Shown here in pieces: positions 11,077 through 49,220 of a stretch of 51,998 nucleotides of DNA (positions are counted from its first letter, which is position 1; the number at the start of each line of letters is the position of its first letter). The stretch is taken from positions 1-51,998 of the forward strand of contig JAPPGG010000051.1 of the NCBI GenBank assembly GCA_028875055.1, given 5' to 3'. Source of the stretch: Chloroflexota bacterium (GTDB lineage: Bacteria; Chloroflexota; Dehalococcoidia; Lucifugimonadales; UBA3495). Under the pieces are notes generated by a model that worked only from the letters and a program-made list of their open reading frames with translations, did no database searches and was not told where the DNA came from. A program made the translations under genes and the position numbers.

Positions 11077-11104
11077 TTGACGACCGTCGGCGACGGGCTA
11101 TAGT
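11077..11104 (+). promoter_or_regulatory. Promoter of the SNF2-SWIM operon
   Basis: TTGACG (11077-11082), a 16-bp spacer and TATAGT (11099-11104), followed by GGAGGAG and the ATG at 11130. The IS21 right end lies only 10 bp upstream of the -35 box, so the insertion spared the core promoter but removed any upstream activator site. Confidence 0.6.
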
Positions 11105-11129
11105 GGGGTCGGAGGAGACGCCGCCCGGG

Positions 11130-14100
11130 ATGCTGATACTGCACGCCGCACAATGTGAAGGCCGTCTGGTCCTGTGGGGAGAGGATTCCGAGGCAACGGG
11201 AGACGGGCACGGAGATGGCCGGCACCCGCGTTGCGCCGCCGGCGACCTGCTGCTCGGGGTCATGGGTCTGGACGTGGGCGAGGAGATGGCGAGCGAGGCG
11301 GTGGTCTGGCTGCCCAGCTGGGGCAGCGAGCCGCTGCCGTCGAGTCCGCTGGCCGGCGAAGCGCCCCGGTCCCGTGCCAAGCCGCGCATACTGCCCTTTC
11401 GGGTGCCCGCGCTCTGGCTGGACGGGGCCGATGCGGGCGAGTTCCTGGAGAGGTGCGGGGACCGCCCGGTATTGCAGCCCGGGGTGGCCTTGGGGCCGGA
11501 AATAACCTACTGGCGCCGGGCGCGGCAATTCGGGATGGCGCTGGTGGCGCGGCAGCGATACCTGCCCACGGCGACGGGACACGGAGACGGGATGACGGCG
11601 GCGTGGAAGGCGGTATTCGTCGGCGATGACGCCGACAGGCTGGCCGACATGGGGGGGTTGATGCCGCCGGCGGCGCGGTCGGCGACCGGGGACGCGGCCA
11701 CTGGTCCGCCGGCCCAGGCGTCCTCGACGGTGCTGCGGGCCTTCCTGGACGGAGTGGTGGACCATCTGGCGCGGAAAGCGTCGGTGCCCCGGCCGGAGGG
11801 GAACGGGTTTGATTCAGCCCACGACGCCTGGCTGCACGCCCTGGGCGCCGCCGACGGAACCATCCGCGTTGGGCCGGACCAGGCGAAGCAGTTGGGCCGG
11901 CAGGTGTCAGAGTGGCAGAGGCCCATCGCCGTTGCCGCCAACGCGCCTTACCGTCTCTGCCTGCGGCTGGAGGAGCCGCCGGAGACCGAGGATGGGGACG
12001 GGGCGGTCCTGGATCAAGGCGATTGGCATCTGCGGTACCTGTTGCAACCCCACGACGACCGGAGCCTGCTGTTGCCCGCCGAGACGGTTTGGAAGGGTAG
12101 GGGCAAGGACGCCGGCAACCCCGATTACAACCCCAGGGAGTTCCTGCTGGCGGCGCTGTCCCAGGCGGCGAACCTGTGCCCGCCCGTCGCCGAGAGCCTG
12201 GAGATGGAGGGTCCCTCCGGCGGGATGCTGTCCGCCGAGGAGGCGCACCGGTTCCTGAACGCGGAGGCGCCGGCGTTGCAGCAGGCGGGCTTTGGAGTGC
12301 TGCTGCCGGCGTGGTGGACCGGGCGGGGGACCAAGGCCAGGCCAACCATCCGGGCCCGGGTGAGGACGCCGGCCATGACGGGAGGCGGAGGAGTCAGCCT
12401 GAGCACCATGCTGGACCTGGAGGTGTCGGTGGCGTTGGGAGGGCAGGAGATCACGCCGGCGGAACTGGCCGAGTTGGCGGAGTTGAAAGCGCCGCTGGTG
12501 CGGCTGCGGGGTCAGTGGGTGGAGATCAACGCCGATGAGATTCGCGAGGCCGCCGACCACTGGCGCAACCGGAAGCAGGTGAGCCTGCGGGAGGCGGTGC
12601 TCATCGGTTTGGGGGCGGAGGAGCGGTCGTCGGAGGACAACGTTCGGCTGGAGGCGGACGATTGGGTCGGCCGGTTGATGGAGCGGTTGGGCCGGGAGGC
12701 GGAGGTCGAGACGCCGGCGGCGCCGCGGCGCTTCCTGGGTTCTCTGCGGCCCTACCAGGAGCGGGGCTACGCGTGGCTGACCTTCCTGCGCCGCTGGGGG
12801 CTGGGAGCGTGCCTGGCGGACGACATGGGATTGGGGAAGACGGTGCAGACGCTGGCGGCGCTGGAGTTGGACCGGCAGGAGGGCAACGACCGGCCCAGCC
12901 TGCTGGTGTGTCCCACGTCGCTGATGTACAACTGGCAGCGGGAGGCGGGGAAGTTCACGCCGGAGCTGGGGGTGATGCTGCATCATGGACCTGGTCGGAA
13001 GCGGGGCGATGAATTCCGCCAGGCGGCGGCGGAGCGGCAGGTGGTGGTGACCAGCTACGGCACCATGCTGCGGGACGCCGAAACGTTGCGGGGGGTGCCG
13101 TGGCGTGCGGTGATCCTGGACGAGGCCCAGAACGTGAAGAACCCGATGGCCCGGCAGTCGCGGGCGGCGCGGGAGCTGCCGGCCGACTACCGGGTGGCGC
13201 TGACCGGGACGCCGGTGGAGAACCACGTGGGGGACCTGTGGTCCATCATGGAGTTCCTGAACCCGGGTCTGCTGGGCACCCAGGCCCGGTTCAAGCGCGA
13301 CTACTTCGTGCCCATCCAGGCGCACCGGGACGAGGCGGCGACGAGCCGGCTGAAGCGGGCGGCCGGGCCGTTCATCCTGCGGCGGGTGAAGACGGACCCT
13401 GCGGTGATCGACGACCTGCCGGACAAGCGGGAGACCAAGCAGTATTGCGTGCTGACCCGGGAGCAGGCGACGCTGTACCAGGCGGTGCTGCGGGAGGCGG
13501 AGACCCGGATGGAGGAAGCGGAGGGGATCAGTCGGCGGGGGATGATCCTGGACACGCTGACCAAGCTAAAACAGGCGTGCAACCATCCCCGGCAGTTGCT
13601 GGGGGACAACTCCGTGGTCGCAGGGCGTTCGGGGAAGCTGGAGCGGCTGGACGAACTGCTGGAGGAAATCGTGGCGAGCGGGGACCGGACGCTGGTGTTC
13701 AGCCAGTTCGCGGAGATGGGCGAGATCATCCGGGGGCACGTGCAGGAGACCTTCGGAATTGAGGCGCCCTTCCTGCACGGCGGAGTGTCGCGGCGAGGGC
13801 GGGACGCCATGGTGGAGCGGTTCCAGAACGACCCTGATGGGCCTCGGGTGTTCGTGCTGTCCCTGAAGGCGGGGGGTTCGGGCCTGAACCTGCCCCGGGC
13901 GAACCACGTGATCCACTACGACCGGTGGTGGAACCCGGCGGTGGAGAACCAGGCCACGGACCGGGCCTTTCGCATCGGCCAGACCCGGGACGTGCAGGTC
14001 CACAAGCTGATCTGCGCCGGCACTTTGGAGGACCACGTCGACGCCATGATCGAGGCCAAGGCGGAGACCGCCCGGCGGGTGGTGGGCGGGAGTTCCGAGC

Positions 14101-14174
14101 GCTGGCTGACCGAGTTGTCCAACGCCGAACTGCGCGACGTGCTGGCCCTGAGCCGGGAACACTACGGCGACTGA
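11130..14174 (+). CDS. SNF2-family DEAD/DEAH-box helicase
   Basis: 1014 residues. The N-terminal half (about 1-530) is the SNF2-associated region common in bacterial Rad54-like proteins. The motor follows: LRPYQERGYAWL, Walker A DDMGLGKT (about 563-570), VCPTSLMYNWQREA, DEAQNVKN (motif II), LTGTPVENH (III), then the second lobe with VFSQFAEMG, FLHGG, LSLKAGGSGLNL and NHVIHYDRWWNPAVENQATD followed by RAFRIGQ. It is an ATP-driven DNA translocase. The ATG at 11130 is chosen over an IS-internal TTG because a promoter and GGAGGAG lie before it. The SWIM gene follows 33 bases later; this pairing recurs in Actinobacteria and Chloroflexota and is thought to form a DNA-repair or anti-element machine (inference). 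Confidence 0.93.
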   Translation: MLILHAAQCEGRLVLWGEDSEATGDGHGDGRHPRCAAGDLLLGVMGLDVGEEMASEAVVWLPSWGSEPLPSSPLAGEAPRSRAKPRILPFRVPALWLDGADAGEFLERCGDRPVLQPGVALGPEITYWRRARQFGMALVARQRYLPTATGHGDGMTAAWKAVFVGDDADRLADMGGLMPPAARSATGDAATGPPAQASSTVLRAFLDGVVDHLARKASVPRPEGNGFDSAHDAWLHALGAADGTIRVGPDQAKQLGRQVSEWQRPIAVAANAPYRLCLRLEEPPETEDGDGAVLDQGDWHLRYLLQPHDDRSLLLPAETVWKGRGKDAGNPDYNPREFLLAALSQAANLCPPVAESLEMEGPSGGMLSAEEAHRFLNAEAPALQQAGFGVLLPAWWTGRGTKARPTIRARVRTPAMTGGGGVSLSTMLDLEVSVALGGQEITPAELAELAELKAPLVRLRGQWVEINADEIREAADHWRNRKQVSLREAVLIGLGAEERSSEDNVRLEADDWVGRLMERLGREAEVETPAAPRRFLGSLRPYQERGYAWLTFLRRWGLGACLADDMGLGKTVQTLAALELDRQEGNDRPSLLVCPTSLMYNWQREAGKFTPELGVMLHHGPGRKRGDEFRQAAAERQVVVTSYGTMLRDAETLRGVPWRAVILDEAQNVKNPMARQSRAARELPADYRVALTGTPVENHVGDLWSIMEFLNPGLLGTQARFKRDYFVPIQAHRDEAATSRLKRAAGPFILRRVKTDPAVIDDLPDKRETKQYCVLTREQATLYQAVLREAETRMEEAEGISRRGMILDTLTKLKQACNHPRQLLGDNSVVAGRSGKLERLDELLEEIVASGDRTLVFSQFAEMGEIIRGHVQETFGIEAPFLHGGVSRRGRDAMVERFQNDPDGPRVFVLSLKAGGSGLNLPRANHVIHYDRWWNPAVENQATDRAFRIGQTRDVQVHKLICAGTLEDHVDAMIEAKAETARRVVGGSSERWLTELSNAELRDVLALSREHYGD

Positions 14175-14207
14175 CCGATGAAGCGACACCGGAGGAGGCG
14201 CGACGCT

Positions 14208-15062
14208 ATGGCTTACCCTGACTACCGGCCCGCCATCCGGGCCCGGGGAGGCATCAGGGCCCAGTCCCGGCGTGGGGACTTCGGCGCCAGCTGGTGGGCC
14301 CGGCGGTGGCTGCAAACCCTGGAGGAGTTCCGGATCGGGACGCGGCTCGACCGGGGACGCTCGTACGCCCGGCGAGGGCAGGTGCTGTCCATCGACGTGG
14401 AGCCGGGCTTGGTGCTGGCCCTGGTGCAGGGGTCCCGGCCCAAGCCCTACCGCGTCTCCGTCCAGGTGAAGACCATCAGTCTGCCGGACTGGGAGGAACT
14501 CAGGGAGGAGTTCGGACGGCAGCCGGCGATAGCGGCCAGCCTGCTTTCGGGGCGGATGCCCGACGCCGTCGAGGAGTGCTTCAGCGCCCGGGGTCTCTCC
14601 ATGTTCCCGGAGAGCGAAGCGGACCTGGAAACGGTATGCAGTTGCCCAGACTGGTCCAATCCGTGCAAGCACGTGGCAGCGGTGTATTTGCTGCTGGGCG
14701 AGGAGTTCGACCGGGACCCGTTCCTGATCTTCCGGCTGAGGGGAATGGAGCGGGAGGAATTGCTGGGCAGGGATTTGGTCCGGTCCGCCCAGACCCTGGA
14801 TGGGCCTCCGGCAGCCCCGGAGCCGTTGCCGGCGGACCCGTCCGAGTTCTGGGGCAATCCCGGGCGGCAATTTGACGAGGGAGACGCCTTCGGAGCCATC
14901 GCCGTGCCCGACGTTCATGCGGCGCTGCCCCGGCAGTTGGGCCGGTTCCCGTTCTGGCAGGGCGAGGAGGAATTCTCCGCCGCGATGGAACGCATCTACC
15001 GGGCGGCGTCGCAGAGCGCCTTGGACGCCCACGCCGGTCAAACCGACGGGGAGGAGAATTAG
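14208..15062 (+). CDS. SWIM zinc-finger protein
   Basis: 284 residues from the ATG at 14208 (GGAGGAGG nine bases upstream; an in-frame ATG at 14178 is the alternative). The start contains FGASWWARRWLQTLEEF, a hallmark of this family, and the SWIM zinc motif reads CSCPDWSNPCKHV (about 145-157). SWIM domains bind DNA or proteins. It almost certainly acts with the SNF2 helicase encoded just upstream in the same operon. Confidence 0.92.
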   Translation: MAYPDYRPAIRARGGIRAQSRRGDFGASWWARRWLQTLEEFRIGTRLDRGRSYARRGQVLSIDVEPGLVLALVQGSRPKPYRVSVQVKTISLPDWEELREEFGRQPAIAASLLSGRMPDAVEECFSARGLSMFPESEADLETVCSCPDWSNPCKHVAAVYLLLGEEFDRDPFLIFRLRGMEREELLGRDLVRSAQTLDGPPAAPEPLPADPSEFWGNPGRQFDEGDAFGAIAVPDVHAALPRQLGRFPFWQGEEEFSAAMERIYRAASQSALDAHAGQTDGEEN

Positions 15063-17586: not shown

Positions 17587-19284
17587 CCCCAATCCACCGA
17601 AAAGATGAAGGCGGCGGCGGATTAAGCGGGTAATTGAGTGCTCCTTTCCTTCTGGGATAATGGTTTCTGATACAGGAAACCGGCCCTGAAAGAGGAGCAC
17701 CCAATAGATGCTACCACGTAAGCGTCTTCACCGCATCCAAATTGCCTTCGACGATCCCCGCTTGGTCAACAATGCCGGGCTGATTCTTCCGGCCACCTTG
17801 GCCCTGCAACTGGGCCTGCCCCAACTGGTGGACCGGCACCTGGACCTGGGGTGCGCCCCAGGCCGGGCCAACGTGGGCGACAAGATCATGACCCTGGTGG
17901 CCTCGGCCCTGGCCGGTGGCGACTGCATCGACGATGCCGACGGGCTGCGCAGCGGCAGGACCGCTGCGGTGCTGGGTTGCACGGTGAAGGCCCCTTCCAC
18001 CCTGGGCGTCTTCCTGCGCAGCTTCCGGTGGGGCCACGTCCGCCAGTTGGACCGGGTAAGCCGGGAACTGCTGGCGCGGACCTGGGCTGCCGGAGTCGGT
18101 CCCGGCGACGCACCGTTGACCATCGACCTGGACTCCACCAACTGCGAGACCTACGGCCTGGACAAGGAGGGCGCCCGCCGGCACAACTACCAGGGCCAGC
18201 GCGGCTATCACCCCCTGCTGGCCGTGGCCGCCGGCACCGGCGACGTGCTCATGGCCCGTCTCAGGGGAGGCCGGGCCAATACCGCCCGGGGCGCCGCCAA
18301 CTTCCTGCGGGAGACGGTGGCACGGGTCCGCTACGCCGGAGCCCAAGGCCCACTCACCCTGCGGGCCGACAGCGGCTTCTACAACCACGCCGTGGTCTCC
18401 GCCTGTCGGAAGAAGCGCGTCCGCTTTTCCATCACCGTCCGCCAGCACCAAAGCCTGCGCAACCTCATTGAGGCCATACCCGAAGAGGACTGGAAACCCA
18501 TACCCTACTGGATGGAGGACGCCGCCGACGTGGCCGAGACCACCTACACCCCCTTTGAGACCCAGCCCGACGCCACCCCGGTGCGCCTCATCGTCCGAAG
18601 GGTGAAACCCACGCCCGGCTCTCAACTGGCCCTCTTCCACACCTACAGCTACCACGGCTTCGTCACCGATAGAGAAGGCGACACCCTGGAACTGGAGGCC
18701 GACCATCGTAGCCACGCCCAGGTGGAGAACGCCATCCGCGACCTGAAGTACGGCGTGGGCCTCAACCATCTCCCCTCGGGCCGCTTCCCGGCCAACGCCG
18801 CCTGGCTGGCAGTGCAGGTAATGGCTCACAACCTGGCCCGCTGGACGGCGCGCATCGCCTTGGGCCAGCAGGCGGTCACCACCAAGACCCTCCGCCAGCG
18901 CTTCTTCTCCCTGGCCGGCCGAATCACCCGCAAGGCGCGCCGGATCACCCTGCACCTACCTCAGGGCTGGCCCTGGCAGGACCAGGTGAATGCCGCCCTG
19001 GTCAAACTGCGCACCCTGCCGCTTCCAGCTTGACGACCCAACGCCGTCAAACCCAGACATCGGCCCTCAGACTCGCGACAAATTGGTACGCGACGGACGC
19101 CCCTTGCTATGCCACCCGTCCAAGTCGGTAAATCTCCGCCTCAGACCGCCTGGGCAACGGCATCCAAACCGCCAATCGAGTACACCGAACGTCCCCATCC
19201 GCGTAAATCACCAGACCGTCCCGTCCTCCAGCCCCTCAATCCCCTTCTTTCTACACTAACCTTTGCCTATCGGTGGATTCGGGG
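17587..19284 (+). mobile_element. Complete IS1380-family insertion sequence
   Basis: 1698 bp. The left end CCCCAATCCACCGAAAAG and the reversed right end CCCCGAATCCACCGATAGG form imperfect terminal inverted repeats. A 4-bp target duplication TAAG flanks it (17583-17586 and 19285-19288), the size known for IS1380. It carries one transposase gene. The clean duplication and restorable target frame suggest recent insertion. Confidence 0.92.
17708..19033 (+). CDS. IS1380 family DDE transposase
   Basis: 441 residues. Catalytic acidic residues lie in LTIDLDSTNCETYG, LTLRADSGFYN and HAQVENAIRDLKYGVGLNHL, the DDE pattern and C-terminal signature of IS1380. GAGGAGC precedes the ATG by about 8 bases. 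It fills most of the element and is uninterrupted, so it may be active. Confidence 0.95.
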   Translation: MLPRKRLHRIQIAFDDPRLVNNAGLILPATLALQLGLPQLVDRHLDLGCAPGRANVGDKIMTLVASALAGGDCIDDADGLRSGRTAAVLGCTVKAPSTLGVFLRSFRWGHVRQLDRVSRELLARTWAAGVGPGDAPLTIDLDSTNCETYGLDKEGARRHNYQGQRGYHPLLAVAAGTGDVLMARLRGGRANTARGAANFLRETVARVRYAGAQGPLTLRADSGFYNHAVVSACRKKRVRFSITVRQHQSLRNLIEAIPEEDWKPIPYWMEDAADVAETTYTPFETQPDATPVRLIVRRVKPTPGSQLALFHTYSYHGFVTDREGDTLELEADHRSHAQVENAIRDLKYGVGLNHLPSGRFPANAAWLAVQVMAHNLARWTARIALGQQAVTTKTLRQRFFSLAGRITRKARRITLHLPQGWPWQDQVNAALVKLRTLPLPA

Positions 19285-26334: not shown

Positions 26335-27996
26335 ATGAAGAAACAGTTGCAACCCCTGACCCCGGCGGCCCTCTACGCCCGGGTCTCCAGCGACCGCCAG
26401 GACGTGGACCTCTCCGTGGCCGCCCAGCTTCGGGCCTTGAGAGACTACGCCAAGAACAACGGCTACTCTGTGGCCCGAGAGTACGTGGACGAGGCCGAGA
26501 GCGGCAGGATCGCCGACCGCCCCCAGTTCCGGGAGATGATCGAGGAGGGCAGCAGGCCAAAGGCACCTTTCCAGGTGATTCTGGTCTGGAAGTTTTCGAG
26601 ATTCACCCGCAAGCGGGAGCACGCTGTGGCCTTCAAGGCCCAGTTGCGGCGCAAGGGCATCCGCGTGGTGTCCATCACCGAGCAGGCCGAGGACAACGCC
26701 ACCGGCCGGCTGCTTGAGGGCATCATCGAGTCGGTGGACGAATATTACAGCGAGAATCTTGGGCAAGAAGTGACGCGGGGGATGCGGGAGGCCGCTTCCC
26801 GTGGTTTCTTCCTGGGTTCCAAGGCCCCCTTCGGCTACACCCGTGTCAAGGTCAGCGACGGGGTGAAGGACCGCCCCACCCTGGAGGTTGACCCCGTGTC
26901 CGCTCCGATAGTCAGGGAGATATTCGAGAGTTCCCGCCGGGGCAACGGGCTGGCGGAAATCTGCAAGGAGCTGAACGGGCGGGGCATCACCAACCGGGGC
27001 AAACGCTGGCAGAAGAACGTCGTCCACTACCTGCTGACCAACGAGGCTTACACCGGCACGGCGGTGTGGGGTGTGAAGAGCAAGGACGAGAAGGCGGGAG
27101 ACCCGGTGAGGGTGGAGAACGCCTGGCCCGCGTTGGTGTCCCGGGAGTTGTTCGACGCGGTGCAGCAGGGACTCCACCAGCGGGCGCCCACGGTGGCGCG
27201 GCCCGGCCGTGTCGGGAGCCAGTACCTGCTGAGCGGTCTCCTGCGCTGCGGGGTATGCGGCAGGTCCTACTCGGCCCAGGGAGCCAAGAGCGGCCAGTTC
27301 GCCTACTACGTCTGCTCCAGCCTGTTCCGGGAAGGAGCCGGAGCGTGCACCGCCCGCTACCTGAACGCCAGCAAGGTGGAGGACCTGGTGATCGAGAAGG
27401 TCAGGGAGCGGATTCTCACCGAGGAGACCATCACCGAGCTGGTGACCCTGGTGGCCGAGGAGATTGATGCTTTGGCCGGCGAGGTCAACGGCAGGCTGAC
27501 CGCCATCAACAGCGAGCTGTCCGACGTGGAGACCCGGTTGGAGAACCTCTACCAGGCCCTGGAGACCCAGCAGTTGCCCATCGAGGTCCTGTCGCCCCGC
27601 ATCCTGTCCCTGAAGAGCCGCCAGGACCAGCTTGTGGCGGCGCGGGAGGAAGCCGAGTTCCAGTTGGAGCAGCGGCGGGCGGAGCTGCCCACGTCGAAGG
27701 AGATCAAGGGGTACGTGGCGGACTTCCGCGCACTCTTCCAGGACGGCACTTTCCCGGAGCGGAAGGCCCTGATCCGCAACTTCGTGCAGGGCATCGAGAT
27801 CGTGGAGGACGAGGCGGTTCTGACGTACACCATCCCCATGCCCCAGGACGGGGTGACGTCGGAATCGGCCTCGGTTCTTGATTTTGTCCAGTCCGGCCCA
27901 CCAGACTTGACGGTAGACAGTACCGGGGAGTGCAAAGCCAGTTCCTCGGCGTCCTTTCCCCCTATCGGACTATTATCCGGCATCGGGATTGTGTAG
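26335..27996 (+). CDS. Large serine recombinase (integrase), plus strand
   Basis: 553 residues from the ATG at 26335 (AAAGGAGA upstream). Catalytic resolvase domain with YARVSSDRQDVDLSVAAQLR (nucleophile Ser18) and RFTRKREHA, a recombinase domain (PFGYTRVKVSDG, then NVVHYLLTNEAYTGTAVWG), a zinc ribbon (CGVCGRS ... YYVCSSLFREGAGAC) and a coiled coil. It catalyses integration or excision between att sites. About residue 522 lies at the centre of an 18-bp imperfect palindrome; beyond it the frame is antisense to the opposing recombinase gene, so the native C-terminus appears to have been replaced. Confidence 0.9.
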   Translation: MKKQLQPLTPAALYARVSSDRQDVDLSVAAQLRALRDYAKNNGYSVAREYVDEAESGRIADRPQFREMIEEGSRPKAPFQVILVWKFSRFTRKREHAVAFKAQLRRKGIRVVSITEQAEDNATGRLLEGIIESVDEYYSENLGQEVTRGMREAASRGFFLGSKAPFGYTRVKVSDGVKDRPTLEVDPVSAPIVREIFESSRRGNGLAEICKELNGRGITNRGKRWQKNVVHYLLTNEAYTGTAVWGVKSKDEKAGDPVRVENAWPALVSRELFDAVQQGLHQRAPTVARPGRVGSQYLLSGLLRCGVCGRSYSAQGAKSGQFAYYVCSSLFREGAGACTARYLNASKVEDLVIEKVRERILTEETITELVTLVAEEIDALAGEVNGRLTAINSELSDVETRLENLYQALETQQLPIEVLSPRILSLKSRQDQLVAAREEAEFQLEQRRAELPTSKEIKGYVADFRALFQDGTFPERKALIRNFVQGIEIVEDEAVLTYTIPMPQDGVTSESASVLDFVQSGPPDLTVDSTGECKASSSASFPPIGLLSGIGIV

Positions 27997-29480
27997 CGCA
28001 CCACGGCGGCCCCGGGCTGCACCACGATCTCCCTGACGAAGGACTCGATGAAAGCTCGTCGCTCGGTAAGCTCGCTCTCGTTCAGGTAACGGCTCAGGTC
28101 CTCGCAGTAGGCGGTAATCGTTTCCACGTCGTCCAGCACCACCCGGCGCTGGGATAGCAGCACCCTGGCCTCCTCCGCCGTCGCCACAAGTTTCTCCTGA
28201 CGCTCCCGGTGGTCCCGGATGCGGGGCTTGAAGTCCTCGATGTCCAGGTCGGTGGTCTCCGCCAGGTTGTAGAGCCGCTCCAGCCTCCGCTTCACGTCGG
28301 CCAGTTCCGCCTCGGCGGTCTCCAGCCGCTGGCGCTGCTCCCGGGCTATGCCGTCCATCTCCTCGTCCACCAGCTTGACCAGTTCCCTGATGTTGGACTC
28401 GGTGAGGATGTTGTCCCGAATCCTGCCGACCACCATCTCCTCGAACCTGCGGGCGTTCAGCCTGGGGCAGTCGCAGGCCCCGCTGCCCCGCTTCATCAGG
28501 GACTGGCAGACGTAGTAGGCGAACTGGCCGCTCTTGGAGTCCTGGCCCGACATGGCGCGGCGGCACGCCTTACACTTGACCAAGCCACTCAGCAGGTAGG
28601 AACTGGCCACCCGCCGGGGGTGTACCTGCTTGGGGGCGCGGGAACGTAGTTGCTTGTTCACCCTGCGGAACTGGGTCTTGGACACGATGGCAGGGAAGGC
28701 GTTCTCCACGCGCACCGGCTCGCCCTTGTGCTTGGCGGATGTTCCCCAGGTCAAAGTGCCGGTATAGGTCTCGTTGCGCAGGATGATGTGGACGCCGTTC
28801 TTGGACCAGGGCCGGCCGGTGGGGTTGGCGATGCCCTCGTCGTTCAGGGTGCGGGTGATGTCCAGGATGCCGTGGCCGGCCTCGGCCAGGTTGAAGATGC
28901 GCCAGACCACTGGCGAGGTGTCCGGGTCGAGTTCCAGGGTAGGGCGTTTCTTGGCCCCGTCCTGGACCATGATCTTGCGATAGCCGTAGGGAACTCTGCT
29001 GGCGACCCAGAAGCCCCGGGAGGCGGCTTCCCGCATCCCCCGGTAAACCTCTTCGGCAAGATTTTCGCTGTAGAATTCGTCCACTGACTCGATGATGGCC
29101 TCCATGAGCTTGCCGGTGGGGGAGTCGTCGGCGTGCTCGGTGATGGAGACCACGCGGACTCCCTTGCGCCGGAGCATGGACTTGAAGGCGACGGCGTGTT
29201 CCCGCTTGCGGGTGAACCTGGAAAACTTCCAGACGAGAATCTCGCTAAAGGGCGACTCCGGCTTGGAAGCCTCGTCCAGCATCTTGCGGAACTGTGGGCG
29301 GTCGGCGATTCTGCCGCTCTCGGCCTCGTCCACGTACTCGCGGGCTACGGAGTAGCCGTTACGCTCGGCGTAATCCCGGAGCGCCCGCATCTGAGCGGCC
29401 ACGGAGAGGTCCACGTCCTGGCGGTCGCTGGAAACGCGGGCGTACAGGGCCGCCGGTATCAGGTCAATTCCATTACTCAT
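27549..29480 (-). CDS. Large serine recombinase (integrase), minus strand
   Basis: Starts MSNGIDLIPAALYARVSSDR at 29480. Same domain order as the plus-strand enzyme and very similar up to YTIPMP (FSRFTRKREHAVAFKSMLRR, a CKAC ... YYVCQSLMKRGSGAC zinc ribbon). About 528 residues are genuine recombinase; the last ~115 (27549-27890) are antisense to the opposing gene and have no recombinase character. The two genes thus meet at nearly the same residue number. A ribbon-helix-helix gene overlaps the start (ATGAGTAATGG), implying coupling. Confidence 0.88.
   Translation of the reverse strand: MSNGIDLIPAALYARVSSDRQDVDLSVAAQMRALRDYAERNGYSVAREYVDEAESGRIADRPQFRKMLDEASKPESPFSEILVWKFSRFTRKREHAVAFKSMLRRKGVRVVSITEHADDSPTGKLMEAIIESVDEFYSENLAEEVYRGMREAASRGFWVASRVPYGYRKIMVQDGAKKRPTLELDPDTSPVVWRIFNLAEAGHGILDITRTLNDEGIANPTGRPWSKNGVHIILRNETYTGTLTWGTSAKHKGEPVRVENAFPAIVSKTQFRRVNKQLRSRAPKQVHPRRVASSYLLSGLVKCKACRRAMSGQDSKSGQFAYYVCQSLMKRGSGACDCPRLNARRFEEMVVGRIRDNILTESNIRELVKLVDEEMDGIAREQRQRLETAEAELADVKRRLERLYNLAETTDLDIEDFKPRIRDHRERQEKLVATAEEARVLLSQRRVVLDDVETITAYCEDLSRYLNESELTERRAFIESFVREIVVQPGAAVVRYTIPMPDNSPIGGKDAEELALHSPVLSTVKSGGPDWTKSRTEADSDVTPSWGMGMVYVRTASSSTISMPCTKLRIRAFRSGKVPSWKSARKSATYPLISFDVGSSARRCSNWNSASSRAATSWSWRLFRDRMRGDRTSMGNCWVSRAW
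27873..27925. other. Recombinase junction / candidate attachment site
   Basis: 53 bp spanning the point where the two recombinase genes meet. The centre AGTCCGGCCCACCAGACT (27890-27907) is an imperfect palindrome encoding SGPPD on one strand and SGGPD on the other. The arms GGTTCTTGATTTTGTCCAG and GACTTGACGGTAG recur at 49098-49150 in inverted orientation. It may be a recombination product of the encoded enzymes. Confidence 0.5.
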
Positions 29481-31789: not shown

Positions 31790-32035
31790 CAATGGCGATG
31801 CGTCAGGCGATTGCACTCTTGCCAAAATCACCCTGGTTGTTTTAGCGCCGTTTCTCACACTTGCAAAAATGCAATTTTTGAATGGTCAAGGGGAATTTCA
31901 GCCCGTTTCGTACCTGGAACCAGGGGACATTGACGCATCGCGGTCTCCCGGCCAACCTCTGAAAACACCCCCGGAGGAAAGTTTGCGCCCCCGGACAACA
32001 GGGCGGGTAGAAGAAGCCGTGTCAGCATGATTAAC
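31790..32035 (-). repeat. Conserved region between replication-relaxation and HTH genes, intact copy
   Basis: Counterpart of 21232-21525. Ordered shared blocks include TTGTCCGGGGGCGCAA, GGTTGGCCGGG, CCTTGACCATTCA, GGGTGATTTTGG and CGCCTGACGCATCGCC, ending at the ribosome site of the HTH gene. Likely a promoter with operators; the CCTTGAC could be a -35 region, but no clear -10 is seen. Confidence 0.6.
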
Positions 32036-33734
32036 GTGTCTCCTGCCGGCGCATACGTCGGCGCAGTTTGTCCCACTCGTATGCCCCCAACTCGCACAGC
32101 GCCAGCGGCGCACGTTCCGGTTCCCACAGGGGGCGCCAGGACCGGCCCAGTATCCCCCTATAGGACAGAAGCTCCCTACTGGACACCAGGATGGGCAGCT
32201 TCATGGCAGGCATCCGGGACGCCGTGCTGGCGTAGGTCTCCGCCACCTCCTCGGTGTCCACCACGAACAGCGTGGTCGGGAAGGGCGGCTGGTCATCCCG
32301 GGGCGCGTCGGAGCGGTAGTAGCGGGAGTAGGGTCGCAGGCGGGCGGCCACTCCCCTGGGGTGGCGGGCGCGCAGCTCGTGCTCGAGGTAGAAGGGCACG
32401 TGCAGGGCGTTGACGAGCAGGTGCCCCACGGCGTCGGGGGCGATGGCGTCCTCGCCCCGGTTGAAGGCCCGGTCCGAGCGGGCGGTGGGAATGGACCACC
32501 GGAGTTCGCTGGCGCCCTCGGCCCGGGCCTCGGCGGCCAGTTCGGACAGGAACCAGGTGATGCCGTCGGCGTGGCCGGTCTGACGCTGCCAGGTGAGGAT
32601 GCGGTGTCCCAGGGGCCGGGGCCGTCCGTGATTGTCGGCAGCAGGCTCGGTGCTCCAGGCGGCCATGGTGGTGGACAGTTGCGCCCGGTCCCGGCGGGTG
32701 ATGTACCTGATGCCCCGGTCGGACACGGCGTAGCGCACGTCGCTCCGCTTGCCGTGCTGTTCCACCAGGCCCCAGGTCTGCGTCAGGCTGCGGGTCATCT
32801 GGCTGACCCTCCCGTCGGACACGCCCAGCCAGCGGGCCAGGTGTTCCCGGGGGATCATCGGGTAGTCGGTGATCAGGTCCAGGGCGCGCTTCTCCGAGGG
32901 GCTGAGGCCGAAGGCCGGGACGGACTGGACCATCCGCTCCGGATCGGGTAGGGACGCCCGCTTGCGCTCCGGCGCCTCCGGTTGAAACTGTCCGCCGGGG
33001 TCGGCGTCGGAGACCACCTGCTCCAGGGTGCGGTATCTCCTGGCAACCACCCAGTTGGAGGAAATCCAGGATAAGCGCTCCCACGCTTCCAGGGTCTCGC
33101 GGCGCTCCACGCCTACGAAATAGTCCCTGAAGTCCGCGTTGAGGCAGAACTCGTCGGTGAGCCGCTGCTCCCAGGGACTGGGAACCAGGACCAGCACCAT
33201 TGAGGGACGGCGGTTGTGGTGGTACTCGGCGATGGCCCGCAGCCGGTCGTAGAGGGAGCGGCGCCGCAGCGCCAGCCCCTGGCGCACCACGCCGAAGCTG
33301 CGGCCGTTGTGGAGCGTGATCACCGCGTCGAACCGGCCCCGGCGCTGGAACTCCACCTGGGTTTCCCGCCCGTCCACGCCGGGGGATAGCGTTGCTGCCA
33401 GGCGGCACACCGAAGCCACGGCGTCAATGCGGCGTATGAGCAATGCCAGCCACTGCCTGGACACGGGGTAGGCCCGCATGAAGCCCGAGGGCGCGTCGTA
33501 GCCCAGGGCTTCGGCGGCCTGGGCGATGCCCTTCTTCGTGAGGTAGTAGCGGTGGCTGGAGGGCAGATGGGCCGTGCCGTGGCTCACCCGCCCGGCCAGG
33601 CCGTCCTTCAGCAGTGTGGCAAGGGCGCGGTGGACCGTCGCCAGAGGTTCGCCCAGGACCAGGGCCAGTTCCCCCGCGTCGATGAGGGGCAGCCGGGCCA
33701 GGGCGTCCAGGATGCGCTCTCGTGAGAATGCCAT
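32031..33734 (-). CDS. Replication-relaxation family protein (full length)
   Basis: 567 residues. The N-terminus is a winged helix (ILDALARLPLIDAGELALVL, then VHRALATLLKDGL and YYLTKKG), a middle region has a second winged helix (LSPSEKRALDLITDYPMIPR, then WLGVSDGRVSQMTRSL), and the C-terminal domain (about 400-530) contains AIAPDAVGHLLVN, YLEHELRARHPRGVAARLRP, FPTTLFVVDTEEVAETYAST. The family (PF13814) is found on plasmids and integrative elements and is linked to plasmid replication and DNA relaxation; biochemistry is scant. The C-terminal layout resembles nuclease-like folds, but I see no firm catalytic set. This is the only full-length copy of four in the window. Confidence 0.8.
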   Translation of the reverse strand: MAFSRERILDALARLPLIDAGELALVLGEPLATVHRALATLLKDGLAGRVSHGTAHLPSSHRYYLTKKGIAQAAEALGYDAPSGFMRAYPVSRQWLALLIRRIDAVASVCRLAATLSPGVDGRETQVEFQRRGRFDAVITLHNGRSFGVVRQGLALRRRSLYDRLRAIAEYHHNRRPSMVLVLVPSPWEQRLTDEFCLNADFRDYFVGVERRETLEAWERLSWISSNWVVARRYRTLEQVVSDADPGGQFQPEAPERKRASLPDPERMVQSVPAFGLSPSEKRALDLITDYPMIPREHLARWLGVSDGRVSQMTRSLTQTWGLVEQHGKRSDVRYAVSDRGIRYITRRDRAQLSTTMAAWSTEPAADNHGRPRPLGHRILTWQRQTGHADGITWFLSELAAEARAEGASELRWSIPTARSDRAFNRGEDAIAPDAVGHLLVNALHVPFYLEHELRARHPRGVAARLRPYSRYYRSDAPRDDQPPFPTTLFVVDTEEVAETYASTASRMPAMKLPILVSSRELLSYRGILGRSWRPLWEPERAPLALCELGAYEWDKLRRRMRRQETR

Positions 33735-37196: not shown

Positions 37197-37589
37197 GTGG
37201 CAGAGAGTTGGAGACCGCCCCAGCGCCGGACCGGAATGCCCGATGCCGGGGTGGTTACCCTGGAGGAACGGCCCGATGAGGAGTTCGCCTTCGGCCCGGC
37301 GGCGCCTTTGGTTGCCGAATGGCGCAGGTTGCGGACAGACGGCAGGCAAGGCGCCAGCCGCGTTGACCGGGCGCAGGCCGCCGTGCGCCGGTGGGAACTG
37401 GAAGCCGCAATGATTGGCGAGTACCACCTGACCCTGCCGCCGGACACCTACCCCTTGGATGGCGCAAGGCGCGCCGATTACGTCCGCTGGCGGCGGGATG
37501 CGTTGGCGGAAGCCCAGAGAGAGTTGGGGAGGGCTAAACGAGCGCGTTTGCTGCGGCGGGTGTTTACTCTGGGGTTGTGGCGGAGGTAG
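37197..37589 (+). CDS. Family A gene, C-terminal domain as a separate frame
   Basis: About 130 residues: [40 protein letters not shown] and the basic end [13 protein letters not shown] match the C-terminal domain of the intact family A protein at 3515-4342. The GTG start at 37197 lacks a ribosome site, so independent translation is doubtful. The frame ends about 110 bp before the restriction island. Confidence 0.5.
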
Positions 37590-37636
37590 TAGCTGCTCTT
37601 CCAAGCGGCGCCGTAGCTATGATTTCCAGGGCCGGA

Positions 37637-37665
37637 TTGACCCGATGCGCCCAGGGGCATATCCT
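37637..37665 (+). promoter_or_regulatory. Promoter of the type I restriction operon
   Basis: TTGACC (37637-37642), 17-bp spacer, TATCCT (37660-37665), leaving a short leader of about 30 bases to the ATG at 37701. The next genes overlap or are closely spaced up to hsdR, so this could serve the whole operon. Confidence 0.45.
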
Positions 37666-37700
37666 TGAACTGCATCCAAGAATACAAGGGAGCGTGGAGG

Positions 37701-37958
37701 ATGGAACCCAGGATGTCGTCAAGCAATCGTCTGCTGCCCACGGGGGAATGCTGGTGTGGCTGCGGCTCGGAAACCTCCATCGGTTCCTTTTTCCTCCCCG
37801 GCCACGACAAGGCCGCCGAGGCGGCGGTGATTTCGGTGGAGTACGGCGGCGCGCCCCGGTTCCTGGTGCAGCACGGGTACGGACCGGAGGGCAAGAATCC
37901 CAGGCAGGAGATGGCGAAGCTGCGCTCCGATGGCAAGCGAGGGAGGAGATCCCGATGA
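37701..37958 (+). CDS. Small CWCGCG protein preceding hsdM
   Basis: 85 residues. Pattern: [20 protein letters not shown] then [20 protein letters not shown] and VQHGYGP. This small conserved protein, probably metal-binding through its Cys residues, is often seen just before type I methyltransferase genes; its function is unknown to me. The start is the ATG with GGGAG upstream. Its stop overlaps the hsdM start (ATGA). Confidence 0.7.
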
Positions 37959-39544
37959 CGACCCCAAAGGGAAGGCGGAAAGCCTCCGGACCCGGGGGCG
38001 CCGCAACAAACGGGGACACGGTTGCGGATTACCGCGCCGAGTTGTGGCGCATGGCCGACACCCTGCGTGGCAGCATGGACGCCGCCGAGTACAAGCACGT
38101 GGTCTTGGGGCTCATTTTCCTCAAGTACATCTCCGACGCCTTTGAGGAAGCCTACGCCAGGCTGGATGCCGAGCGGGACCAGGGCGCGGACCCGGAGGAC
38201 CCGGACGAGTACCGAGCCCAGGGCATCTTCTGGGTGCCGCCCGAAGCCCGGTGGACTGTGCTGCAAGCCCAGGCCCGCCAGCCCGCCATCGGCCGTTTGG
38301 TGGACGACGCCATGACCGCCATTGAGGGGGACAACCCGGCGCTCAAGGACGTGCTGCCCAAGGAGTACGGCCGGGACGCCCTGGACAAGCAGCGCCTGGG
38401 CCAGGTGGTGGACCTGGTGAGCAACATCAGGGTCGGCGGCGCCGAAGCCCAGGCCAACGACGTGCTGGGGCAGGTGTACGAGTACTTCTTGGAGCAGTTC
38501 GCTTTGGCCGAGGGGCGCAAGGGCGGCGAGTTCTACACGCCCCGCTCGGTGGTGCAGCTGCTGGTGGAGATGCTGGAACCGTACCAGGGCCGAGTCTATG
38601 ATCCATGCTGCGGCTCCTCGGGGATGTTCATACAGTCGGTGGACTTCATCCGCGCCGACGCCACGGGCAACGGCAACGGCGGCCGCGCCAGGGGGGACAT
38701 TTCCATCTACGGCCAGGAGTCCAACTACACCACCTGGCGGCTGGCCAAGATGAACCTGGCCATCCGGGGCATCGAGGGTCAGATCGCCCAGGGCGACAGC
38801 TTCCACAACGACCGTCACCCCGACCTGCGGGCCGACTACACCCTGGCCAACCCGCCTTTCAACGTCTCCGATTGGGGCGGCGAACGGCTGCGGGACGACA
38901 AGCGTTGGGATTACGGAGCGCCGCCGGTGGGCAACGCCAACTTCGCCTGGGTCCAGCACTTCCTGTACCACCTGGCGCCCCGGGGAGTGGCGGGGTTCGT
39001 GCTGGCTAACGGCTCCATGTCCTCCAACCAGTCGGGTGAGGGGGAAATCCGCAAGGGCATCGTCGAGGCGGGACTGGTGGACTGCATCATCGCCCTGCCA
39101 GGGCAGTTGTTCCGCTCCACCCAGATACCGGCCTGCCTTTGGTTCCTGCGCAAGGGCCGCGTCGCGGGGGAAACACGCACCAGGGAAACGCTGTTCATCG
39201 ACGCCCGCAAGCTGGGGCATATGCTGGATCGTACCCACCGGGACCTGTCCGCCGAGGACATCGCCCGCATCGCTGGCGCCTACCATGCCTGGCGGGGCGG
39301 CGCCGGCGACTATGCCGACGTACCCGGGTTCTGCAAGAGCGCATCGCTAGAGGAAATCGGCAAGCACGGTCACGTGCTCACGCCGGGCCGCTACGTGGGA
39401 GCGGAGCCGCAGCCTGACGACGGCGAGCCCTTCCAGGAAAAGATGGCCCGCCTGGCAGCCCAGTGGCGGGAGCAGCAAACCGAAGCCCGGCGGTTGGACG
39501 CGGCCATCGCCGAGAACCTGGAGCGGCTGGGATTCGGAGGGTAG
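37955..39544 (+). CDS. hsdM: Type I restriction-modification methyltransferase subunit HsdM
   Basis: 529 residues. N-terminal HsdM helical domain ([20 protein letters not shown] then KYISDAFE), AdoMet motif [14 protein letters not shown] (about 214) and catalytic NPPF in [14 protein letters not shown] (about 298). It methylates adenine in the bipartite site defined by HsdS. GGGAGGAG precedes the ATG. High GC, like hsdR, whereas the genes between them are clearly lower in GC. Confidence 0.95.
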
Positions 39545-39550: not shown

Positions 39551-39977
39551 TTGACGAACTTGAACCTTGGGCCGCTGGAAGACGCTGTTGGCCAGTTGGA
39601 AGACGCCTTGGACATATATCACTCCGACTTGGCATTGGACAACCCTCGTCTCAAGAGACATCTGAGGGCAGCCGTAATCCAAGCCTTTGAGTTCACGTAT
39701 GAGCTCTCCTTCAGAATGCTGCGCCGCTACCTGGAGCTTGCATCGGCCAATCCCGCAGAAATTGATGAACTCGTTTTCAATGACGTGATTCGTGAAGCGT
39801 ACAGGCAAGCCCTCCTCAAGTCCGAACTCCCGGAGTGGATGGAGTTTCGGAGAAACCGCGGCACGACCAGCCATACCTACAACGAAGAGAAGGCGCAGGA
39901 GGTGTTCGAAAGCGTTCCCGACTTCCTACAGGAGGCCCGGTATCTCTTGAACCGCCTACAAGAGAGGGTTGGATCTT

Positions 39978-39985
<8 letters not shown>
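39551..39985 (+). CDS. HepT-type HEPN protein (HI0074 / NTase_sub_bind family)
   Basis: 144 residues, helical: LEDAVGQLEDALDIYHSD and LRAAVIQAFEFTYELSFRML are typical of the nucleotidyltransferase substrate-binding family. The active-site motif is R101-NRGTTS-H108-T-Y110, i.e. R-x6-H-x-Y. Known: in HepT-MntA modules the HEPN RNase is the toxin and MntA inactivates it by adding AMP to the Tyr two residues after the His. Here the partner nucleotidyltransferase is the N-terminus of the next protein, fused to HsdS. The TTG start is 6 bases after hsdM; the stop overlaps the next start. Confidence 0.8.
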
Positions 39986-41625
<1,640 letters not shown>

Positions 41626-41633
<8 letters not shown>

Positions 41634-42897
41634 ACCGAACCAAGACATTCTGCTTGCAGAAATGGTGGTCGAGTTTGTCATTGACGGGCGATGCGTCTCC
41701 GCCCCGGCGAGAATTCTTGAACGGCTGTCGCCTCACCCCCAGGTGGTAATCGAGGTTACAGACGTTCCGCGCCAACCACAACCGATTTCGCGCAGTACGC
41801 CAGACCGACAAACGTCAACCATCTCGACATTCCCACCAACTTCTAAAGGGCCTTCAGAAGTACGATTAGGCAGCGGTGTGCGAATTGGTGTGGTTGCCAA
41901 TGACTGGGTTTTCAACCAGACGGACGCAACATTACATTTGCAACTGAATCCGTGTGTCGCTTTGGATTTGCGGAATCCAATTTTCAAGTTGCATTTCAGC
42001 CTGTTGAACCTTACCGGGGATGTCTTCGATTGGCCGATAAAGTTGGAAGCTCCGCCTTGGCTTGTAAACATCGCACCCGTGCCAAACAAGTCAAAAATTG
42101 AAAGGGAACTTCGAAGAGCCTCCGGCTACTCCGTGATGCACGCAGGCACAATCGAACGCATGGACGGAGAAGACATTTCTGAACAGAACGCGGAAGCTCT
42201 TCTTGCTGGATTGGAAAGGTTTCTCTCCTTCGTTTGCGGATCTTCGTGCGGCTTGACCAACGTAACGGGTGTTGGAAAAACAGATAATGCGATCTGGAAG
42301 CGTTGGGGGTCCCATCACGTATCCCCATGGCAACGCCGCCGTTCGTGGTCAGATATCACCATCCGAAACAACCTTCCAGACATGTTTGCCGCGTATTGGG
42401 AAAAGTACCAGAGGCGTCAGCAACACTTTGATAGAGTTTTGGGTTGGTACGTCCACAGCAACGAAATTGAAGCACTCGACCTGAGTATCATTCTGAATCA
42501 AACTGTCCTTGAAATGCTGACCAGTTTGACATCCAGTGGAAACGATGCAGGAGGACCTATGGGGCACCGCATTGCGGCCATGCTAAAGGAGCAAGGTATC
42601 GATCCTCAGATTCCTGCCTATTGTAGTGAACTAATTGCGTTGGCCAAGCGCTGCGGCTTCAGACATGGCCCACATACACTGGTTGAGATACGTAACTCAA
42701 CGGTTCATTCAAACAATAAACCAGGGCAAACTGCCATCGAAGCTTTCCACGAAGCCAAACACTTGGGCTTATGGTACATAGAGCTTCTGCTACTGAAAAT
42801 GTTCGAGTATACAGGCGAATATGCCTCACGCCTTGCAAACGTTCAGCGAGCGGGAGCTACGGAACTGGTTCGGTGGTTGAATGACGAGCAATCTTGA
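41626..42897 (+). CDS. HEPN-type protein (ApeA-like C-terminus), defence-associated
   Basis: 423 residues. The N-terminal 240 residues are beta-rich and unassigned; the C-terminal part is helical with LVEIRNSTVHSNNKPG, i.e. R356-N-S-T-V-H361, a classic HEPN R-x4-H site in the ApeA-like context (followed by a WYIELLLLKMFEY helix). Likely an RNase acting in abortive defence (inference from family). The start overlaps the hsdS stop by 8 bases (ATG at 41626), so production is coupled to HsdS. GC is low relative to hsdM and hsdR. Confidence 0.55.
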
Positions 42898-43535: not shown

Positions 43536-46500
43536 ATGACCACCCTCACCGAAACCGACGTCGAACAGGCCGCCCTAGAATGGCTCGCCACCTTGGGCTG
43601 GCAGACAGCACACGGGCCGGACATCGCCCCGGACACGCCGGGCGCAGAGCGGGCCGACTACGGGCAGGCGGTCCTGGAACGACGGCTGCGGGATGCTCTG
43701 GCCAGGCTGAACCCGGCATTGCCCTACTCGGCGGTTGAAGATGCTTTCCGCAAGCTGACCCGGCCCGAAGGGGCCACCCTGGAGACCCGCAACCGGGAGT
43801 TCCACCGGATGCTGGTCAACGGCGTCAACGTGGAATACCGAGCCGGCGACGGCGGTATCCGGGGCCAGCCGGCGCAGGTTATAGACTTCGGCAATCCGGC
43901 AAACAACGACTGGCTGGCGGTCAACCAGTTCACGGTTACGGAAACGGTGGGCGGGAACCGGAACACCCGCCGCCCCGATGTCGTCCTGTTCCTCAACGGC
44001 CTGCCCCTGGGCGTCATCGAACTGAAGAACCCCGCCGACGCGGAGGCCACCATCTGGAGCGCGTGGCAGCAGCTCCAGACCTACCAGGCAGAACTGCCCT
44101 CCCTGTTTTCCATGAACGAAGTACTGATGGTCTCCGACGGTCTGGCCGCCTGCATCGGCGCCCAGGGAGCCGGGCAGGAGTGGTTCAAGCCCTGGCGCAC
44201 CACCACCGGAGAAACGCTGGCGGATTCCAGCCTGACCGAGTTGCAGGTGATGCTGGAAGGCGTGTGCCAACCGGAGCGCCTCTTGGCCTTGCTGCGGGAC
44301 TTCATCGTGTTTGACGACGACGGCAGCGGAAAGCCGGTGAAGAAGCTGGCCGGCTACCACCAGTTTCACGCCGTCCGCGCCGCCGTGGGCGAGACCCTGC
44401 GAGCGGCAGAGTTGGAGCGGGCGGAACGGAACATCGGAGAGGAACGTGGCAGTTACGAGTCGGGCCGCAGGCCCGGCGGCGAGCTCGGCGACCGGCGCAT
44501 CGGGGTGGTCTGGCACACCCAGGGATCCGGCAAGAGCCTCACCATGGCCTTCTACGCCGGGGCCATCGTGCGTGAGCCGGCCATGCAGAACCCTACCATC
44601 GTGGTCCTCACCGACCGCAACGACCTTGACGATCAACTCTTCGGCACTTTCTCCCGCTGCCAGGACCTGCTGCGCCAGCCGCCGGTGCAGGCCGAAAGCC
44701 GCTCCGATCTGCGGCAGAAGTTGTCGGTGGCTGCCGGCGGCGTGGTGTTCACCACCATCCAGAAGTTCTTTCCCGAGGAGCGGGGCGACACCCATCCCAC
44801 CCTATCGGAACGGCGCAACATCGTAGTCATCGCCGACGAGGCCCACCGCAGCCAGTACGACTTCATCGACGGTTACGCCCGGCACATGAGGGACGCCCTG
44901 CCCAACGCCTCCTTCGTCGGCTTCACCGGCACGCCCATCGAGTTGGAGGACGCCAACACCCGGGCGGTGTTCGGCGATTACATCAGCATCTACGACATCC
45001 GGCGTTCCGTGGAGGACGGGGCCACGGTGCCCATCCACTACGAAAGCCGCCTGGCCAAGCTGGAACTGGACGACACCCAGCGTCCCACCATTGACCCGGA
45101 CTTCGAGGAGGCCACCGAGGGCGAGGAGCTTGAGCAAAGGGAGCGGTTGAAGACCAAGTGGGCCCAGTTGGAGGCCGTGGTCGGTGCTCCCGACCGGGTA
45201 AGGCAGGTAGCCCAGGACATCGTTGACCATTTTGAGCAAAGGTTGGAAGCGCTGGACGGCAAGGCCATGGTGGTGTGCATGAGCCGCCGCATCTGCGTTG
45301 ACCTGTACGACGAACTGGTCCGCCTGCGCCCTGAGTGGCATGGAGACAACGACGGCGAGGGCGCCATCAAGGTGGTGATGACCGGCTCGGCATCGGACCC
45401 GCCGGAGTGGCAGCGGCACGTGAGGAACAAGGCCCGCCGGGAGGCGCTGGCCAATCGCTTCAGGGACCCCGACGACCCTTTCAAGGTGGTATTGGTGCGG
45501 GATATGTGGCTGACCGGCTTCGACGCGCCCAGCCTGCACACCATGTACCTGGACAAGCCCATGCGGGGACACGGGTTGATGCAGGCCATCGCCCGGGTGA
45601 ACCGGGTGTTCCGGGACAAGCCGGGCGGGTTGGTGGTGGACTACCTGGGATTGGCCAACGACCTGCGGCGGGCACTGGCCACGTACACCGAGAGCGGAGG
45701 AACCGGGCGCGCCGCCATCGACAAGGAAGAGGCGGTGGCGGTGATGCTGGAAAAGCACGAAGTGTGCTGCGCCCTGTTTCACGGCTTTGACCGGTCGAAG
45801 TGGACGTCCGGCGGGCCAGGGGAACGGTTGGGGTTGCTTCCGGCCGCTCAGGAACACATCCTGACCCAGGAAAACGGCAAAGACCGCTGCATGGCGGCGG
45901 TCCGCGAGCTCTCCCAGGCCTTCGCCCTGGCCGTGCCCCACGAGGAGACCCACCGCATTCGCGACGACGTGGGGTTCTTCCAGACGGTGCGGGCGGCGTT
46001 GTCCAAGTCGTCGCCTTCGGATACGCAATCGGACGAGGAGACGAACCTGGCGATACGCCAGATAGTTTCCCGGGCGGTGGCTTCGGAAGGAGTCCTGGAC
46101 ATCTTCGCGGCAGCGGGGTTGGACAAGCCGGACATCTCAGTGCTGTCCGAAGACTTCCTGGCCGAGGTGCAAGGAATGCCTCAGCGCAACCTGGCGGTGG
46201 AGTTGCTGCAAAAGCTGCTCCGGGGTGAAGTGGCGAACCGCCGGCGCACCAACGTAGCACAGGCCCGCTCCTTCGCCGAGATGCTGGAACAGACCCTCCG
46301 CCGCTACCAGAACCGGTCGGTTGAGGCGGCGCAGGTGATAGAGGAGCTGATCCAACTGGCCCGTGAGGTGCGGGAAGCCGCTGCCAGGGGCGAAAGGCTT
46401 GGTCTGACGGATGACGAACTGGCCTTCTACGACGCCCTGGAGACCAACGACAGCGCCGTGCAGGTTCTGGGCGACGAAACGCTCCGCGCCCTCGCCCGCG

Positions 46501-46688
46501 AGTTAGTGGAGACCGTGCGGCGCAACGTTACCATTGACTGGACGCTGCGGGAGAACGTGCGGGCACAGTTGCGTGTCCTGGTCCGGCGTATCCTGCGCAA
46601 GCACGGGTATCCGCCGGATAAACAGGAAAGAGCTACCCAAACGGTACTGGAACAGGCGGAGGTGCTGTCGGAAGGGTGGTCGGTTTGA
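43536..46688 (+). CDS. hsdR: Type I restriction endonuclease subunit HsdR
   Basis: 1050 residues. Nuclease domain with [15 protein letters not shown] then VIELKNP (D148, E162, K164), followed by the SF2 motor: [16 protein letters not shown] (Walker A, about 327), [44 protein letters not shown] and [13 protein letters not shown]. It translocates DNA and cuts unmodified DNA with HsdM and HsdS. A helical C-terminal region follows that binds the MTase core in known enzymes. The frame is intact. Confidence 0.95.
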
Positions 46689-49071: not shown

Positions 49072-49155
49072 TTACAAAGCTAAGAGCAATTCAAAAACGG
49101 TACTGCCTACCGTCAAGTCAGGCCCACCAAGCTGGACAAAATCAAGAACCTTTAC
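49072..49155 (-). pseudogene. C-terminal remnant of a serine recombinase / second att-like copy
   Basis: The minus strand reads VKVLDFVQLGGPDLTVGSTV then FELLLAL and stop, matching ASVLDFVQSGPPDLTVDSTG of the plus-strand recombinase. At DNA level 49098-49150 is the reverse complement of 27873-27925 over the outer 19 and 22 bases, with a different 12-base centre. It may be the end of a lost recombinase or an attachment-site relic bounding the restriction island. Confidence 0.45.
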
Positions 49156-49220
49156 AATCAGGTTCAAAATAGCCGTGTAGTCGCCCATTGGGTCAGCCCT
49201 ACGCGACGGCAAAGTGCGAA

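Follow-up and report, generated by a model that had tools for sequence, protein, structure and literature searches.

Paired recombinase junctions as putative attachment sites of a restriction island with an integrase gene probably split by integration in a Chloroflexota bacterium

A contig of a Chloroflexota bacterium (JAPPGG010000051.1; its whole analysed stretch of 51,998 nucleotides is called the window below) contains two similar 53-base sites in inverted orientation, one of them next to recombinase genes, and a type I restriction system lies between them. Such an arrangement raises the question of whether the recombinases invert the enclosed 21 kb, as the original prediction proposed, or whether the sites have another function.

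Paired junctions around a restriction island

To compare the two sites directly, we aligned 27873–27925 with the reverse complement of 49098–49150. They are identical at 44 of 53 bases, which is far beyond chance, the next-best 53-base match to 27873–27925 in the window reaching 33 bases on the same strand and 27 on the opposite strand. The outer parts match as described, over 19 bases on the left and, on the right, with one A/G difference. The centres do differ as stated (TCCGGCCCACCA versus CTTGGTGGGCCT), but they are not two orientations of one core: the core GGCCCACCA is identical at both sites and runs in the same direction on the + strand. What appears to be a flipped core in an inverted repeat is a directly repeated, asymmetric core between palindromic arms. 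The two junctions are laid out as follows.

27873–27925: junction A.B, left end of the B island (A arm 27873–27891, core 27895–27903, B arm 27904–27925)
49098–49150: junction B′.A′, right end of the B island (B arm 49098–49119, core 49121–49129, A arm 49132–49150)

Because the core is direct at both sites, the predicted reaction is excision or integration of 27.9–49.1 kb, not inversion. It is very improbable that integrases flip the 21-kb stretch: the outer arms are indeed inverted repeats and recombinase genes are found at one of the sites, but an inversion system calls for inverted cores and these are direct, junctions elsewhere in the genome are arranged consistently with respect to the direction of the core, and in a tRNA-anchored array on contig C49 the cores all point one way. 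We have rejected the inversion reading on core orientation.

The two sites are very probably hybrid attachment sites at the ends of a 21.2-kb island that carries the large serine integrase LSR-B and the type I restriction system, with the integrase gene split by integration. In the mechanism that we propose, this B island would have joined a tandem array, with type A islands that carry the related integrase LSR-A on either side. The attP of each element would be a palindrome of ~52–54 bp with an asymmetric core and CC at the dyad centre, and the chromosomal target would be those tRNA genes whose 3′ ends match the core. With attP placed within the 3′-terminal part of the integrase ORF, the integrase body would stay at one island end upon integration, its last 15–16 codons and stop would be left at the opposite one, and excision would reunite the two. 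Since A and B read the core on opposite strands, the A integrase would come to lie tRNA-distal and the B integrase tRNA-proximal. The arms, core orientation, tRNA target, empty site and tail conservation on which this scheme is built are read from the sequence; we infer that the integrases act on the A and B sites, that crossover occurs at CC and that loss of the tail alters activity. The parts of the scheme found in the window are these.

27904–49121: genomic island of type B, 21.2 kb (delimited by the arms and the core)
26335–27903, + strand: LSR-A body, large serine integrase, 523 aa (Pfam Resolvase, Recombinase, Zn_ribbon_recom)
27904–29480, − strand: LSR-B body, large serine integrase, 525 aa (Pfam domains)
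49072–49119, − strand: severed LSR-B tail DLTVGSTVFELLLAL followed by a stop (49072–49074), an in-frame continuation of LSR-B across the core
49130–49180, + strand: severed tail of an A-type integrase, SWTKSRTFTIRFKIAV, stop 49178–49180 (end L176)

The original prediction was right that recombinase sites bracket a type I restriction island, the cargo of which includes the following genes.

32031–33734, − strand: replication-relaxation/HTH protein (Pfam PF13814, E 6.7e-7)
37577–39544, + strand: HsdM, type I methylase (PF02384, E 3.1e-100; HsdM_N)
39969–41633, + strand: HsdS specificity subunit (PF01420, PF18765; PADLOC Specificity_I)
43536–46688, + strand: HsdR restriction subunit (TIGR00348, E 4.7e-174; PADLOC REase_I)

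The true start of HsdM is probably downstream of the ORF start. The N-terminus of HsdS contains an MntA-like nucleotidyltransferase stretch (NCBIfam MntA, E 1.9e-10, under the cut-off), and a 423-aa ORF (41626–42897, + strand) without a match in Pfam, PADLOC or NCBIfam overlaps the HsdS 3′ end; the two may be a toxin-antitoxin pair linked to the restriction genes. The cargo differs in other B islands that share these ends. The neighbouring A island encodes, on the + strand, an SNF2 helicase with DUF3670 (11061–15062; best PADLOC matches ZorD and DpdE) and, after it, a SWIM zinc-finger protein; the two may form a defence pair. This A island also contains a Mu-type/rve transposase (8955–10190) and a DDE group 1 transposase (17708–19033).

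Integrase classes, candidate attP sites and tRNA targets

LSR-A and LSR-B share 56% identity, and both have Resolvase, Recombinase and zinc-ribbon domains in that order, over the Pfam cut-offs. CcrB of the SCC elements is only a distant homologue, the two integrases scoring just 159 and 145 bits against an equivalog cut-off of 900 (NCBIfam). The 3′ end of LSR-A consists of the A arm and core, and there is no stop before the junction. Further LSR-A copies, 95–98% identical, are found at several loci of the genome, which holds full-length integrase copies free of internal stops as well as integrase fragments.

To reconstruct the unintegrated sites, we joined the LSR-A end to the sequence right of 49129 (attP_A) and the sequence left of 49129 to the LSR-B end (attP_B). 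The rejoined arms are GGTTCTTGATTTTGTCCAG for attP_A and GACTTGACGGTAGRCAGTACC for attP_B. Each rebuilt site falls in the 3′-terminal part of a gene for a large serine integrase and is palindromic about a common dyad centre, GGCC|CACC, with 21 and 22 of 26 positions paired; none of 3000 shuffles was as good for either. Of the 132 GGTGG sites in the window, the expected partner ranks first. Palindromes with an asymmetric central dinucleotide (centre C|C) have the shape expected of attP for two serine integrases, and we infer CC as that dinucleotide. Both share one half-site layout, with an outer GGTnC at −23 and an inner GTCnA at −10 from GCCCACCA. The core is read as GGCCCACCA by LSR-A and as TGGTGGGCC by LSR-B, in both cases at one and the same position close to the C-terminus. 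A screen of 99 genomes yielded no intact attP_A-like site, and neither of two attP patterns was found in a viral collection.

The opposite reading of the core follows the integrase phylogeny. In a tree of 70 integrases, all 30 labelled rows of the A-like clade have A polarity and 31 of 32 in the B-like clade have B polarity, these counts omitting the seven tree rows that lack a polarity label. Polarity also agrees with anatomy: B integrases end at tRNA genes, which adjoin them at 13 of the 32 named B-type ends, and A integrases lie at the far end. A long-branched B-clade integrase at a contig end (L098, JAPPHY010000019.1) has A core polarity, possibly a second orientation flip. Nearly the same integrases also occur in bins of other phyla, an Acidimicrobiia MAG (L094) and an Acidobacteria MAG (L065); L094 stands at zero branch length beside L109 from a Chloroflexi bin, which may be a binning error or a transfer between symbionts.

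The core, GCCCACC(A), coincides with the 3′ terminus of tRNA genes, namely tRNA-Val(GAC), tRNA-Val(TAC), tRNA-Lys and tRNA-Ile. Among the 49 tRNA genes of the genome six end in the core, and an A or B end is found at four of these six versus none of the 43 others: A ends adjoin tRNA-Val(GAC), tRNA-Val(TAC) and tRNA-Lys, and one B end adjoins tRNA-Ile. Three tRNAs carry GGTTC-GA-GTCCA at −17/−10. By a post hoc alignment their inner motif stands at the attP distance (−10 in all five sequences) and their outer motif 6 bp nearer the core (−17 versus −23 in attP).

As is the case for tRNA-integrated islands, the tRNA 3′ end is repeated at the far boundary and an empty site is found in relatives. 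One contig of the genome (C71) ends in the tRNAs Val-Leu-Arg-Val(TAC) followed by an A′ end, and on another (C61) chromosomal DNA adjoins an A end. This C61 flank matches DNA in G002 (85%), G001 and G004 (75%) and G007 (70%), and in all four relatives tRNA-Val(TAC) continues straight into the flank-like DNA. The tRNA-Val(TAC) site is empty in these relatives. In the genome of the window the two ends of the occupied locus lie on different contigs, C71 and C61, which the assembly does not connect. In two further genomes, G058 and G055, ARAGORN showed no tRNA beside the flank match (L245 and L247).

A genome-wide search for the A arm, which the original prediction had called for, returned 16 places at ≤2 mismatches and none with the reversed control; the B arm is found at 9 places at ≤3 mismatches. 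The objection that the arm might simply be conserved coding sequence of recombinase C-termini holds in so far as the arms are integrase-coding, but they are attachment sites as well: they lie at tRNA 3′ ends, bound islands of differing cargo and have an empty counterpart in relatives. We classed 17 junctions, comprising the A-arm sites and the tRNA-Ile.B end, as three tRNA.A′, one tRNA.B, five A.B, five B′.A′ and three A.other (the partner in the A.B junction of contig C72 is an LSR-B fragment). All ten island-island junctions are heterotypic, with A joined to B. The C49 array starts at tRNA-Ile and continues with B islands of 21.7 and 17.9 kb that alternate with A islands, in the order B, A (29.3 kb), B and A, the last running to the contig end. 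Five B islands (17.9–42.3 kb) have the integrase end in common, four of the five share a block of ~2.45 kb, and a few more blocks are common to pairs.

In genome G071 a lone B island lies at tRNA-Ile (828352–879136), and in G013 A.B and B′.other junctions are 58 kb apart. A rule that B islands stand only upstream of A islands fits the genome of the window and is broken in relatives by B′.X junctions (L197, L198, L201–L203, L208 and L210). Similarly, we dropped a strict ban on homotypic junctions, since G004:C311 (B′.B) and G144 have them. After a named A-type end an A′ tail was found in none of 31 cases, one of which ran off its contig; the count of opposing integrases is too low, L065, L069, L072 and L080 also facing LSR-B by eye. 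At position 18660 of G004:C311, a 23.9-kb contig, a nearly intact attP_B-like junction lies beside its own integrase (L199, L215); a circular overlap test found none, and circle and tandem are indistinguishable here.

Severed integrase tails

The LSR-B tail lies 21 kb from the LSR-B body, at the left edge of the 49072–49155 interval flagged by the original prediction, and the tail at 49130–49180 is that of the A island which comes next on the right. Body and in-frame tail are thus found at opposite island ends. When the frames are followed across the core into the far end of the island, that of LSR-A gives SWTKSRTFxIRFxLxL-like tails and that of LSR-B gives DLTVxSTxFEMWxGL-like tails. In 39 unique A′ ends the first stop falls at codon 17 in 29, at codon 18 in two, at codon 10 in two and elsewhere in three, and three have no stop within 75 nt. 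In 25 unique B′ ends it falls at codon 16 in 17, at codon 17 in three and elsewhere in two, with no stop in three. Ten A′ tails out of 39 and eight B′ tails out of 25 thus lack the modal stop, and L185 and L196 are clearly degenerate. The other two frames mostly have early stops or none, with no comparable pattern. Entropies by codon position are 0.87/0.76/0.91 for A′ and 0.73/0.56/0.84 for B′, modest differences with the second position lowest. In the integrated state the integrase frames continue into neighbouring DNA and acquire tails of many lengths.

Two integrases are misfits to this simple scheme, L098 with its A polarity inside the B clade and L070. The A-type integrase of L070 (MPMJ01000027.1, 226–1839) runs in frame into a B′-type tail and stop (NLTIDRTIFEMWLGGL), which may reflect a hybrid attP or an exchange of tails between the classes. 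An AlphaFold model of this integrase with its tail (mean pLDDT 72.7, pTM 0.37) gives the tail a pLDDT below 50, and so lends no support to a structural role of the tail.

As an independent test, the comparison was extended to Dehalococcoidales. With G099, a Dehalococcoidales relative, 65 of 101 genomes matched. We analysed six stretches from five genomes of the order, with integrases whose ends adjoin tRNA-Ala, tRNA-Val or tRNA-Met. In four single-contig genomes an in-frame tail and stop were found at 16.1 kb (G183), 37.7 kb (G107), 43.5 kb (G174) and 9.8 kb (G144), and the tail-integrase dyad ranks first among 59, 39, 74 and 73 GGTGG sites, respectively. For the second G144 island the dyad ranks second of 73, and in this genome the tail of the first island completes the integrase of the second in frame. 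No far end was found within 60–80 kb for G163 or for the second G183 stretch (G183a).

These data bear on two further explanations. The far-end tails could be non-coding, conserved only as an attachment arm bound by the integrase and ending in accidental stops. The first ~7 tail codons do overlap the binding arm and the codon positions differ only modestly in entropy, but the stop stands at one codon well past the arm in the majority of unique ends of either class, the other two frames offer no comparable reading, second codon positions are the least variable, and Dehalococcoidales with different arms retain an in-frame RT..F-type tail and stop. We therefore regard non-coding tails as quite unlikely. 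Alternatively, the arrays could be fossils in which neither integrase still works, a reading to which the degenerate ends and tails and the integrase fragments of the genome would lend themselves. This too is unlikely, if somewhat less so: against it stand the full-length, uninterrupted integrases, the near-identical LSR-A copies at several loci, the differing cargo between matching ends and the free target in sister genomes. Together these observations suggest recent movement.

A more tentative extension, which we consider possible rather than probable, is that integration acts as a switch. The integrase gene would be whole only on the circle, and insertion would remove the tail and so change or disarm the enzyme. 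Alternating mirror-image arrays, in which no body regains a tail, would be locked, while homotypic junctions (G144, G004:C311), which place a body beside a tail of its own class, would be unstable and hence rare.

Relation to known integrases

The closest parallel is the ssrA-GI of Dehalococcoides, in which dsiB always overlaps attL and its stop codon is unclear (McMurdie et al. 2011, PMC3146451). It was suggested that dsiB may work on the circle alone, or when an adjacent island supplies a 3′ fragment (PMC3146451). As in these islands, the 3′ end of a serine integrase runs into the attachment site before any stop is reached within the island, and the islands stand in tandem with an RNA-gene core as direct repeat, likewise in the class Dehalococcoidia (PMC3146451). 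Unlike the ssrA-GI, which target the tmRNA gene, the islands described here are found at tRNA 3′ ends and not at ssrA (PMC3146451). Neither a palindromic attP nor a second, mirror-image integrase class is described for the ssrA islands in the passages of that report considered here (PMC3146451), in which the 3′ integrase fragment is likewise only suggested; in the tRNA islands we find it, with a conserved stop.

Self-disrupting recombinases have been called exclusively archaeal tyrosine enzymes (Badel et al., PMC8371274). Similar to the ‘suicidal’ integrases of the SSV type, the attP lies inside the integrase gene and the gene is partitioned by integration; unlike them, the enzymes here are bacterial and are serine, not tyrosine, recombinases (PMC8371274). 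In SSV integrases the catalytic domain lies in the C-terminal part, which the split detaches from the N-terminal part, whereas here only 15–16 residues are removed (PMC8371274). The sites also resemble those of the LI/A118 phage serine integrases in having a central dinucleotide and related half-sites in attP; as a further possible parallel, the outer (zinc-domain) motif may stand nearer to the core in attB half-sites than in attP half-sites (PMC3783163). For LI this shift is 5 bp (Rutherford et al., PMC3783163); unlike LI, the target here is the T-arm/acceptor end of a tRNA gene, and our shift, from a post hoc alignment, is 6 bp (PMC3783163). Among the open-access papers returned by literature searches, none described in its title or abstract opening a serine integrase that loses its tail on integration.

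By sequence comparison, dsiB-homologous integrases of tRNA islands have their missing 3′ fragment at the far island end, with a conserved stop. The fragment is seen both in SAR202-type relatives and in Dehalococcoidales and bears on the question, raised in 2011, of where dsiB ends; the integrase completed by its neighbour in G144 matches the suggestion made at that time (PMC3146451). The analysis also provides exact boundaries and targets for an island family, some members of which carry defence genes, in bacteria that are mostly uncultured. Should the tail prove to matter for activity, these enzymes would provide a parallel, among bacterial serine recombinases, to the archaeal suicidal integrases, and a convenient system in which to test the control of directionality.
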